In this document: positions 46,713 to 49,970 of the stretch, piece by piece
How positions within the stretch are numbered: the first letter of the stretch is position 1
Layout: each line of letters begins with the position of its first letter
Assembly: GCA_903874975.1 (NCBI GenBank)
Contig: CAIQUL010000043.1
Location: forward strand, 1 to 53,620
Direction of reading: 5' to 3'
DNA length: 53,620 nt
Source of the DNA: an uncultured Chthoniobacter sp.
GTDB taxonomy: Bacteria; Verrucomicrobiota; Verrucomicrobiia; Chthoniobacterales; Chthoniobacteraceae
Translations under genes and position numbers: made by a program
Notes under the pieces: model-generated
The model's database searches: none
What the model was told of the DNA's origin: nothing
What the model saw: the letters and a program-made list of their open reading frames with translations, nothing else

Positions 46713-47300
46713 ATGATTCCCGCGGAACCGCTTCTTCACGCGTATCGCAGCGCAGTCTTTCCCATGGCCGAACCCGACGGCCAGGTCTCGTGGTATTCGC
46801 CGGACCCGCGTGCGATCATCCCGGTGGACGACGGCTTTCACTTGCCGCACGGGCTGCGCCGGGTTTTGCAAAAAGGCCGCTTCGAGATCCGGGTGAACGC
46901 GGGCTTCGAGGCCGTGATGCGCGCCTGCGCGGAACGCGACGAGACGTGGATCAATGAGGAGATCATCGCCAGCTACGTGAACCTCCACCGACTCGGCCAC
47001 GCCCACTCCGTGGAGGCGTGGCTTGACGGGCGGCTCGCCGGCGGGCTCTACGGCGTGACCCTAGGCGGCGCGTTCTTTGGCGAGTCCATGTTTCACACGG
47101 TCACGGATGCCTCAAAGGTGGCGCTGCACGCGCTGGTCATGCGGCTGCGCGCCCGTGGCTTCACGCTGCTCGACACGCAATGGATCACGCCGCACCTCGC
47201 CACTTTCGGCGCCCGCGAAATCTCCCGCCGCGAATACACCCGCCGCCTCCGCGCCTGCGTGGACGCGCCGTGTGAGTTTCTGGACGCACCGCCGGAGTGA
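46713..47300 (+). CDS. aat: Leucyl/phenylalanyl-tRNA-protein transferase
   Basis: 195 residues. Family motifs: YRSAVFPMAEPDGQVSWYSPDPRAIIP, ETWINEEIIASYVNLHRLGHAHSVEAW, GGLYGVTLGGAFFGESMFH, LLDTQWITPHLATFGA. It moves Leu or Phe from tRNA to N-terminal Lys/Arg of proteins for the N-end rule. It is slightly short, as the N-terminal variable part is reduced. It is the only plus-strand gene in the right third, divergent from the small lipoprotein gene. Confidence 0.94.
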   Translation: MIPAEPLLHAYRSAVFPMAEPDGQVSWYSPDPRAIIPVDDGFHLPHGLRRVLQKGRFEIRVNAGFEAVMRACAERDETWINEEIIASYVNLHRLGHAHSVEAWLDGRLAGGLYGVTLGGAFFGESMFHTVTDASKVALHALVMRLRARGFTLLDTQWITPHLATFGAREISRREYTRRLRACVDAPCEFLDAPPE

Positions 47301-47438
47301 CGACCACCGTCGAGCCCGCCCCGAAAATCAGCGAAATGAGTATCTGGCTCACCGCACCAGATTTCCGGGATCGCCCGCCGCTCACGCTGCCGAAGGAACC
47401 GCCGCCGACGAGAGTGCCGCCACTTCTGCCTTTGCTTT

Positions 47439-47864
47439 TCACACCCACTCCGCACCCAGCAGCTCCGCCTGCGCGTGCACCGTCTTCACGGCTTCTTCCT
47501 GCAAATCCGGCGGGTAGCCGGGTTTGTTCAGGATGCGTTTCACCATCACTTTGACCCGGGCGCGGGCGCTTGCGCGGAGGGTCCAATCGATGGTGACGCT
47601 CTGGGAAAGTTCGAATGCAGAAGTGCGAATTTCGAGCCAGAAGCCGGTTTCGTCCGCTTCCCCCTCGACGGTTCCGGGTTTCGAGATGAAGTCGGCCTTC
47701 GATTTTCCACGACACGCTGAACGGTAGTTGGCCGCGACCGAACTCGACGAGCGGATGACTTGCCCTATGGCGTGCCGTGTTTCCAAGACTTGCGGAAAAT
47801 CAGCGCACAACCCGATGCCATCGAGCGCGAATTTCTTGGTTCGTTTCTTCAGTGCTTCACTCAT
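47439..47864 (-). pseudogene. Fusion scar: four-helix-bundle (S23/IVP) gene joined to hsdR 3' end
   Basis: 141 residues made of two unrelated pieces in one frame. Residues 1 to about 79 are the N-terminal part of a four-helix-bundle/S23 protein (VIRSSSSVAANYRSACRGKSKADFI, then EADETGFWLEI). From about 90 on it is the C-terminal end of a type I restriction HsdR subunit (TIDWTLRASARARVKVMVKRIL, then GYPPDLQEEAVKTV and QAELL). The joint leaves both domains incomplete, so it is most likely a deletion remnant of a restriction-modification locus. No hsdM or hsdS lies in the window. Confidence 0.75.
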
Positions 47865-48118
47865 GGCTTTTCAATTCCACATGCGCGCTTCGGCATTCGA
47901 CATTCGGCGTTTCCGTGCGGGGCGCGGACGTGCTCTGGGCCGCTTGCCACCGGGTGGCGGAGGGTCCGCTCACGCGGGAGCGCTGCGGTCCGTGGCGCGT
48001 GGGCGTGCGGCCCCTCGCGCGGAGGGTGGATGAACGCCTCGCCGAGCCCCTCGGTGCGACGGTCCCGCGATCATGAAAAACCTTCACCGACTGTTCCGGC
48101 GGGAAAAGCGCAGGTTGC
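47865..48118. other. Intergenic stretch behind gpmI
   Basis: 254 bp between the fusion scar and gpmI. It has the motif CATTCGACATTCGGCG (47895-47910), akin to short TCGA-type repeats often seen by four-helix-bundle genes, and GC-rich low-information sequence. I see no credible gene or clear terminator. It may be further debris of the lost restriction locus. Confidence 0.4.
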
Positions 48119-49651
48119 TCAGTGCAACAGATTCCGCCCCGTCATCTCCCCCGGCTGCGCCACGCCGAGCAGCCCGAGCAAAGTCGGTGCGACATCCGCG
48201 AGGATGCCGCTCCCGATCTTCGCGCCCGGTTGCGGCGAAACGTGGAGGATCTGCACGAGATTCGTGGTGTGTGCGGTGTTCGGTGAACCGTCCGCGTTGC
48301 GCATCTGCTCGCAGTTGCCGTGGTCGGCGGTGATCAGCAGTTGCCCGCCGAGCGCGAGCGTCCGTTCCACCACCTGCCGCACGCAGTCGTCGATCGTCTC
48401 CACCGCTTTGATCCCCGCCTCGACTACGCCGGTGTGCCCGACCATGTCCGGGTTCGCGAAGTTCAAAATCACCAGGTCGTAATCCGGCAGCGCCGCCATC
48501 ACCCGCGCCGTCACCTCGGGCGCGCTCATCTCGGGTTTGTAGTCGTAAGTCGGCACGTCCTTCGGCGACGGCACGATGATGCGGTCCTCGCCCGCGAACG
48601 CCTCCTCCACCCCGCCGTTAAAAAAGAACGTCACGTGCGGATACTTCTCCGTCTCCGCGATGCGGAGCTGCCGCCGCCCTGTCGCGCTCACCACCTCGCC
48701 GAGCATGTTTTTCAGCGACTGGGGCCCGAAGACCACCGGGCACCCATAGGTCTCGTCATACTCCGTGAGCGTCACGTAATGCACCGCCGGCACCGCCTCG
48801 CGCTCGAAATCCGCGAAATCCTTTTCCAAAAACGCCCGGGAAAGCTGCCGCGCCCGGTCCGCCCGGAAATTGAACCACAGCACCACATCGCCGTCCCTCA
48901 CCCGCTGCTCATTCGCGTGGGAGAAAATGATCGGCTGGAGAAACTCATCGCCCCGCCGTTCCTGCGTGTAGGCCGCGCGCACCGCCGCACTCGGCGTTTC
49001 GTGCGAAACCGGCCCGCGCCCCAGCACGATCGCGTCCCACGCCAGCTTGTTCCGCTCCCAGCGCTGGTCGCGATCCATGGCAAAGTAGCGCCCGATGACC
49101 GTGGCGATCCGCGCCCCGCTCGGCTGCAACCCCACCTGCACCCGCGCCAGGAAATCCGCGCCACCCGTCGGCGACGTATCCCGCCCGTCGGTGATCGCAT
49201 GCACCATGATGTCTCCCACGCCCGCGCCTTTCGCCGCCGCCGCCAGCGCGATCAGATGCTCCTGATGCGCATGCACCCCGCCATCGCTCACCAGCCCCAG
49301 CAGGTGCAACCGGCTCCCCCGCGCCTGCGCAAACGCCGCCTGCAACACCGGGTTGGTCGCCAGTTCCCCGTCCACGATCGCCTTATTGATCCGCGTCAGA
49401 TCCTGATACACCACCCGCCCCGCGCCGAGATTCATGTGGCCCACCTCGGAATTCCCCATCTGCCCCTCCGGCAAGCCCACATCCATCCCGCTCGCACTCA
49501 GCGTCCCCTGCGGGTAGGTGGCGTAGAGGTGGTCGTGGAAAGGCGTGCGCGCCAGCAGCGTCGCATCGCCATTTTCCACCGCACGCGCGCGCCCGCCGGG
49601 ATTGATTCCCCAGCCATCGCGAATGATCAGCACCACAGGTTGTTTCGGCAT
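48119..49651 (-). CDS. gpmI: 2,3-bisphosphoglycerate-independent phosphoglycerate mutase
   Basis: 510 residues, normal size. Metal and catalytic motifs: IIRDGWG (D12), GNSEVGHMNLGAGRVV (S68 phospho-acceptor), ITDGRDTSP, and the late metal sites FANPDMVGHTG and LLITADHGNCE. It interconverts 3- and 2-phosphoglycerate in glycolysis. ATG 49651 is chosen; seven further in-frame residues upstream are not conserved. It stands alone. Confidence 0.95.
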   Translation of the reverse strand: MPKQPVVLIIRDGWGINPGGRARAVENGDATLLARTPFHDHLYATYPQGTLSASGMDVGLPEGQMGNSEVGHMNLGAGRVVYQDLTRINKAIVDGELATNPVLQAAFAQARGSRLHLLGLVSDGGVHAHQEHLIALAAAAKGAGVGDIMVHAITDGRDTSPTGGADFLARVQVGLQPSGARIATVIGRYFAMDRDQRWERNKLAWDAIVLGRGPVSHETPSAAVRAAYTQERRGDEFLQPIIFSHANEQRVRDGDVVLWFNFRADRARQLSRAFLEKDFADFEREAVPAVHYVTLTEYDETYGCPVVFGPQSLKNMLGEVVSATGRRQLRIAETEKYPHVTFFFNGGVEEAFAGEDRIIVPSPKDVPTYDYKPEMSAPEVTARVMAALPDYDLVILNFANPDMVGHTGVVEAGIKAVETIDDCVRQVVERTLALGGQLLITADHGNCEQMRNADGSPNTAHTTNLVQILHVSPQPGAKIGSGILADVAPTLLGLLGVAQPGEMTGRNLLH

Positions 49652-49970
49652 AAGCCGCGCGGTTTCGCACAATCCCGCCGCCGAGTCAAAACCTCACCGT
49701 CCCCGGCTCGCGCCCCTCACGCTCTGCGCCGCGCGGTCGCGGCGCGCGAACTCATTTGCCCCGCCGCACCTCCAGGCCGGCGAGGGATCCTTTCCGAAAC
49801 GCCCGATCAGCTCGCGCACGAGTTCGAGCAACGCCCGTCCGGTCCCGGCAAAAACGTCGCCGATCGCCCGCTATTGCCGCAGAATGCCGCAGGTCTGCCA
49901 GCCGTGAAGGGGCTGGAGACTATGGCTCGAATTCGTCAGCAGCAGAGAGAACCGTGGGCAATGCTCAGGT
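49652..49970. other. 319-bp gap without a recognised gene
   Basis: Between gpmI and the TIM-barrel gene. Open frames on both strands exist only because of high GC; none shows a known motif or a ribosome site. It presumably holds the gpmI promoter and the end of the TIM-barrel transcript, but no clear promoter or hairpin terminator was found. Confidence 0.4.

Follow-up and report, generated by a model that had tools for sequence, protein, structure and literature searches.

A short open reading frame joining S23 and hsdR segments as a probable deletion scar of a type I restriction-modification locus in an uncultured Chthoniobacter

The S23 family has been known for decades from rRNA intervening sequences (IVS), no function has been assigned to it, and we know of no activity, nuclease and transposase included, for its members. 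Repeats of the REP/BIME and MITE-like kinds, a second point of reference, are short, imperfectly palindromic and scattered, and occur as non-autonomous elements beside an autonomous one. A search of the open-licence literature returned no account of S23 genes with inverted repeats outside rRNA, nor of an hsdR scar of the kind discussed here. In Coxiella burnetii, according to the passages on this element in PMC4990558, the 23S rRNA IVS holds an S23 ORF between inverted repeats with a 28 bp terminal stem; the same passages describe 23S rRNA IVS as about 430 nt long, patchy in their presence, excised by RNase III and, as some propose, mobile or remnants of transposition.

The S23 family of the clade studied here resembles these IVS in that many of its ORFs lie between terminal inverted repeats, but differs in that the intact S23 units sit in hsdM or between protein-coding genes rather than in rRNA, in that their arms are built of near-repeated short units peculiar to each copy, and in that S23-less versions exist. 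The coexistence of S23-less with S23-bearing copies recalls REP/BIME and MITE-like repeats, although the partner gene here is S23 and the unit sequence is not conserved between copies. The copy analyzed below, from a window of 53,620 nt (the whole stretch of DNA that was analyzed) of an uncultured Chthoniobacter sp., departs further from IVS, having neither the last third of S23 nor the S23 fold.

A reading frame of three segments between gpmI and aat

The minus-strand ORF at 47439-47864 starts with ATG and comprises 141 codons (141 aa). A sequence-only reading had seen in this one frame the start of an S23/IVP-type protein and the end of a type I restriction subunit, and searches of the whole ORF bear it out, with matches above family cut-offs to PF05635 (23S_rRNA_IVP; residues 7-80, E=1.8e-8, 35.0 bits, cut-off 33.8) and PF11867 (T1RH-like_C; residues 86-136, E=7.4e-17, 62.1 bits, cut-off 26.8) in Pfam and to TIGR02436 (residues 6-81, E=8.1e-14, 51.8 bits, cut-off 24) in NCBIfam. 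The PF11867 match spans 51 of the 329 profile positions (276-326), the end of the HsdR C-terminal domain, and agrees with the earlier estimate of about 50 HsdR residues. That reading had also called for separate searches of the two halves; in these, the S23 half retains both its Pfam and NCBIfam matches and the hsdR tail retains its Pfam match, with no NCBIfam match for the tail alone. Compared with the full-length HsdR encoded on contig C136 of the same genome, the tail shows 81% identity over 57 aa and, at the DNA level, 89% over 164 nt. The objection raised by the same reading, that the C-terminal half might have no HsdR similarity, is answered by the strength of the PF11867 match (E=7.4e-17).

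Segment boundaries were set by a blastn comparison of the region with every locus retrieved by that stage (Table 1). S23 homology stops at 47629, with L065 (93% over 236 nt) and L061 (91% over 237 nt), and ungapped homology to L063 runs from about 47904, within the left arm, through the S23 part (86% over 276 nt). From the other direction, a single ungapped block covering right arm and hsdR tail matches L071 (89% over 190 nt) and L074 (87% over 188 nt), starting at 47628-47630, and plain hsdR homology (C136 and others) begins only at 47602, with an overlap of ~2 nt at the arm/tail boundary. The S23/right-arm junction thus falls at about 47629-47631, and the ten linker residues IRTSAFELSQ belong to neither S23 nor HsdR. 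The sequence-only reading, correct about the two halves, had overlooked this third segment of 30 nt, as well as the identity of the linker as an arm of a palindromic repeat and the residence of the S23 subfamily mostly inside hsdM. Because the S23 breakpoint lies inside S23 coding sequence (codon 79 or so) rather than in an arm, with 2-3 nt of shared bases, simple arm-with-arm recombination does not explain the joint, and homologous recombination between arms was rejected as its sole cause.

The flanking genes gpmI and aat, and guaA upstream of aat, are intact (NCBIfam), and this location places the ORF outside rRNA. hsdM, hsdS and further hsdR sequence were sought in the ORF flanks and none is left, so the former operon at this site is something we infer. 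Among 15 relatives that have an aat locus, none had gpmI beside it within the 1.5 kb flanks, so that no empty site can be demonstrated for this locus. Neither a sigma-70-like promoter in 47380-48130 nor an Rfam match in 47200-48200 was found. The stretch between the left arm and gpmI (47915-48118) is GC-rich and has no match elsewhere in the genome.

Since the contig comes from a short-read metagenome assembly of 348 contigs that holds other S23 genes and hsdR tails, an S23 locus could conceivably have been joined to an hsdR tail at a repeat during assembly. The junction, however, is in mid-contig between two intact genes; the right arm occurs once in the assembly even with up to 3 mismatches allowed, and hence offers no repeat to misjoin; and the arm-tail half of the joint is present independently in L071 and L074. 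An artefact of this kind is scarcely credible.

Table 1. Positions of the segments of the chimeric ORF, its neighbors and related features (own genome, G000; same-family genome, G024)
Feature	Position	Strand	Basis or remark
Left arm of palindromic repeat, 5' of S23 start, GGAAACGCCGAATGTCGAATGCCGAAGCGCGCAT	47881..47914	-	Read from sequence; left edge by eye
S23 (four helix bundle) gene, 5' two thirds, codons 1-78	47631..47864	-	PF05635, TIGR02436
Right arm ATTCGCACTTCTGCATTCGAACTTTCCCAG, translated IRTSAFELSQ	47601..47630	-	Near-identical elements in hsdR of other loci
hsdR 3' end, last about 53 codons + stop	47439..47602	-	PF11867; 89% nt to C136 hsdR
gpmI (2,3-bisphosphoglycerate-independent phosphoglycerate mutase), right neighbor, intact	48119..49672	-	TIGR01307, 653 bits
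aat (leucyl/phenylalanyl-tRNA--protein transferase), left neighbor, intact	46713..47300	+	TIGR00667, 207 bits
HsdM_N/HsdR-tail scar, first copy (L003/L010)	G000:C245:82323-82484		Contig end
HsdM_N/HsdR-tail scar, second copy (L005/L011)	G000:C248:48-188		Contig end
hsdM fragment	G024:C62 3342-3647		
S23 gene	G024:C62 3673-4017		
Second hsdM fragment	G024:C62 4074-4298		
hsdR fragment, ahead of the arms	G024:C62 9579-9992		
hsdR tail	G024:C62 10857-11090		Itself interrupted by foreign sequence

Palindromic S23 units and arms in restriction genes

Arm complementarity was assessed by aligning the 160 bp upstream of each S23 gene with the reverse complement of the 160 bp downstream, in the 42 of 45 distinct S23 copies that had both flanks. 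Scores of at least 14 were reached by 23 of the 42 copies, compared with 15 of 327 pairings of flanks from different S23 copies and 2 of 81 non-S23 ORFs of the same loci (Fisher p below 1e-10 against either control), and arms therefore pair better within a copy than between copies. By reading, the arm units within the own genome also vary by copy, being of AATGCTAA type at C147:13002, ATGACCA type at C11, GGATGAA type at C208, CGAAATC type at C147:7040 and CGAATG type in the chimeric copy. The latter scores 8.5 in the 160-bp test because its downstream flank begins past the hsdR stop. Local alignment of the reverse complement of its right arm against 47861-47960 gives a score of 12.5, which 0.28% of 5000 random 100-bp pieces of the window attain; its arms are only weakly complementary. 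Its RNA fold is no better than that of shuffled sequences (z -0.48), whereas a long terminal stem forms in the fold of the intact copy L004 (z -2.52).

L004 (G000:C147:13002-13328) lies between trpE and trpG, named from NCBIfam fragments, in a gene-to-gene gap of 437 bp. Comparison of the corresponding gap loci (L201-L221) finds trpE beside trpG in 18 of 20 other genomes with trpG, the gap being 45 bp or less in 14 of the 18 (15 bp in G001 and 16 bp in G003, of the same genus) and 98-178 bp in four, with S23 in none of the 18. Of the longer gaps, those of G004 (same genus) and G007 contain, at this spot, palindromes similar in style that have no S23, and the remaining two look palindromic by eye. 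The C147 copy of the family can in this way be set against both occupied and empty sites in close relatives, a pattern that would be expected of insertion by an element with an S23 form and a short form. No transposase gene was seen alongside the palindromic repeats.

The S23 genes closest to the chimeric copy (L061-L070; 83-94% protein identity over 77-78 compared residues) mostly sit within hsdM. By Pfam and tblastn, hsdM lies on both sides of S23 in seven of these ten loci (L061, L063, L064, L065, L066, L067 and L070) and on one side in L062, which meets a contig end on the other; L068 and L069 have no credible hsdM beside S23 in the same searches. Across all 45 copies, eight have hsdM on both sides and 32 lack any match to hsdM, hsdS or hsdR in the nearest 900 bp, so that the hsd association is a trait of one S23 lineage and not of the whole family. 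The unit has common hsdM sequence on its right in L067 and L070 but unlike sequence on its left, with more of hsdM gone in L070, which indicates that the elements grow deletions at their edges. In L062, a BsuBI/PstI-type restriction endonuclease gene (L062:2340-3386; PF06616, PF17728) adjoins the S23-interrupted hsdM.

A decayed locus on contig C62 of G024 (L195), a genome of the same family, holds the parts of such an arrangement in order and on one strand over 7.7 kb (Table 1). Were everything between S23 codon about 80 and the arm that precedes the hsdR tail to be deleted, a distance of about 6.9 kb in G024, the arrangement of the chimeric ORF would result. The G024 arm and hsdR tail are not in one frame, which makes this locus a model rather than an ancestor. 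Repeats of another kind, with HMPAQGNALG/QPFQGL-type translation, occur in the decaying hsdR of G024 (L195:10200-11500) and in L073, L097 and L102.

The right arm itself recurs within hsdR at five loci, with 0-2 differences over 27-29 nt: 27/28 for both copies in L071, 28/29 in L073, 27/29 in L074 and 27/27 in L103 and L082. In L071 and L074 the arm abuts VTIDWTLRES almost exactly as in the chimeric ORF and in the same frame, and in L073 it lies in frame seven codons further upstream of the hsdR tail. By reading, the arm in L071 and L074 is one side of an imperfect palindrome that replaces pieces of hsdR, with short, nearly repeated units of CGAATG type on one side and CATTCG type on the other.

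The hsdR tails that resemble the one studied here are often debris. They were fetched with the tail of the chimeric ORF as query, a biased sample in which 80 of 311 confirmed stretches were kept; 68 of the 70 loci L071-L140 gave a tail, 18 of these cut by contig ends, and among the matches listed 25 of the 50 uncut tails lie in frames below 900 aa. By local alignment score, an arm lies within 1200 bp of the tail in 6 of 16 frames shorter than 300 aa, against none of 9 frames of 300-899 aa, none of 25 of at least 900 aa and none of 18 cut by contig ends, with 0 of 68 in the reversed-sequence control. The difference between 6/16 and 0/25 (Fisher p=0.0018) is to be read with the arm query having been taken from counted loci (L071, L073, L074), so that the six positives are not independent of it, and with the score having been designed once the result of an earlier, too strict regular expression for arm motifs near tails had been seen (1 of 25 broken and 0 of 25 full frames).

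These distributions also bear on a different route to the same joint, in which an S23 gene with both arms would have inserted in hsdR before SVTIDW, a short internal deletion would have taken the last third of S23, the rest of hsdR would have been lost separately, and the right arm would be S23's own. Such a route needs only a small deletion for the joint and accounts for partly complementary arms on both sides of the S23 remnant. However, the chimeric copy is alone among the 45 in having hsdR sequence within 900 bp of S23, as against the eight flanked by hsdM on both sides; the elements most similar to its right arm are hsdR ones that lack S23; and in G024 S23 occupies hsdM while hsdR has an element of its own. 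We consider insertion of S23 directly into hsdR unlikely.

Elsewhere in the same genome, one full-length hsdR remains, on C136, as a 1052 aa ORF with HSDR_N, SWI2_SNF2, T1R_D3-like and PF11867 domains, and its hsdS is cut by the contig start. A second restriction scar lies at the end of C245, where an HsdR tail is fused to an HsdM_N fragment (hsdM part, tblastn E=1e-17) through a different short repeat, GAGCGGAGCGAACCGAGTGGAACG; the start of C248 is a 95% identical copy of that end. Two ORFs of 141 aa (L009:1849-2274) and 350 aa (800-1852) lie between hsdS and hsdR on C136. An hsdM fragment at another contig end (G000:C121:23639-23734, L199), 84% identical to L061 over 32 aa, may be a further restriction remnant, or else the truncated beginning of the C136 operon.

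Conservation, substitutions and predicted fold of the chimeric ORF

The sequence-only reading had offered, as an alternative to a deletion, a rare fused small protein, and had noted that conservation of the fusion in several species would speak against a deletion. In its fullest form this alternative has the HsdR tail replacing helix 4 of S23 and taking a new role, such as binding to a restriction complex. It can draw on 141 codons held in frame with an ATG, on the helical character of the HsdR tail and on both halves scoring above family cut-offs, and the lack of a premature stop counts against reading the ORF as a pseudogene. However, a match spanning the junction of the 59-aa junction peptide was found in the own genome only, of 387 genomes of the phylum searched, as was an end-to-end match of the full chimera among 147 relatives; the fusion is thus absent from the 386 other phylum genomes and the 146 other relatives. 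Two candidate second fusions were discarded: L071 (matching residues 19-141, 52%), whose translation revealed a broken hsdR that contains two short elements but lacks S23, and L040 (matching 27-141), whose match comes solely from a full hsdR frame extending upstream of its tail. The same combination of arm and tail occurs elsewhere as debris.

Substitutions in the ORF are relaxed. Counting as private any base that differs from at least 80% of the others and from all of them, the S23 half has 5 nonsynonymous (N) and 1 synonymous (S) changes against 17N:22S in 10 other S23 genes, and the tail 5N:0S against 8N:20S in 13 other hsdR tails, some of which come from genes that are not full-length. Pooled, 10N:1S against 25:42 gives Fisher p=0.0018, an excess that rests mostly on 11 changes; these include replacement by Pro of a Leu in helix 3 and of a His in the tail. 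Measured against the nearest S23 gene, L065 (dS 0.12), the ORF has a pairwise dN/dS of 0.53, compared with 0.03 to 0.19 in 45 pairs of intact S23 genes, some of them saturated. Against most other S23 genes the ORF still gives low values (0.08-0.17) because most of that divergence predates the fusion.

AlphaFold returned no confident fold for the chimera (pLDDT 56.8, pTM 0.30), from a shallow alignment of 20 sequences, half of its rows being hsdR tails; the intact S23 protein L061, with the same 20 sequences, folds well (pLDDT 91.8, pTM 0.84). L061 matches the solved TIGR02436/PF05635 member 2RLD (Bacteroides thetaiotaomicron BT_0352) by sequence (E=6.9e-10), and 2RLD is also the best fold match of its model (TM 0.71-0.73 by query length, three best chains); Avd of diversity-generating retroelements is a weak fold match. 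The ORF, in contrast to members of the 2RLD family, has a match that ends at residue 80-81 of about 120 and yields no confident model. It covers the TIGR02436 profile only to position 76 of 109 and falls short of a complete four-helix bundle of about 110-125 residues; this coverage and the pTM of 0.30 against 0.84 identify it as an S23 remnant rather than a working S23. Nor is it an HsdR, a protein of ~1000 aa with nuclease, helicase and C-terminal domains, since it has no helicase, no nuclease and not the rest of the C-terminal domain. A functional fusion protein is, on these grounds, very unlikely.

A probable deletion history and its significance

Most probably the ORF is a pseudogene, formed where the deletion of most of a type I restriction-modification locus brought two ends together. 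The sequence-only reading had proposed such a deletion, which gains support from the recurrence of the arm-tail joint, the S23 relatives in hsdM and the ordered G024 locus; neither a conserved fusion nor a lack of HsdR similarity was found, and its alternative of a rare fused small protein is not supported.

In the history that we propose, a type I operon (hsdM, hsdS, hsdR) would once have stood between gpmI and aat. An S23 gene with palindromic arms would have entered hsdM, and a short palindromic element without S23 would have entered hsdR just before the SVTIDW codons. A single deletion, with one breakpoint at S23 codon about 80 and the other where the right arm of the element in hsdR has its inner end, could then have taken out the last part of S23, the remainder of hsdM, hsdS and the bulk of hsdR, the hsdM sequence upstream of S23 presumably being lost in a separate step. 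Because the element in hsdR was already in frame with the tail, the joint had to hit only one of three frames to leave an open ORF, which would now drift without selection on its protein. Most likely, then, the ORF does not work as a protein and records the element-assisted loss of a type I locus.

The scar itself is ordinary decay, and S23 ORFs between inverted repeats are already known from 23S rRNA. What appears new is such a repeat family outside rRNA, characterized here only as far as the scar required, and because repeats of the family to which the linker points turn up in broken restriction genes across this bacterial group, the ORF offers a dated, readable case of the loss of a defense locus. 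More broadly, and at somewhat less than even odds in our judgment, S23 genes in Verrucomicrobiota may be passengers or drivers of palindromic mobile elements outside rRNA, with copy-specific arms of unit repeats and with S23-bearing and short S23-less forms, which would enter intergenic gaps such as that between trpE and trpG as well as protein genes, one lineage doing so in type I restriction genes that erode into scars; the rRNA intervening sequences would then be a special case. If this wider pattern holds, annotation pipelines should class short S23 fusions as scars rather than genes, and the S23 family would be tied to a mobile palindromic element, a connection testable in culturable relatives.
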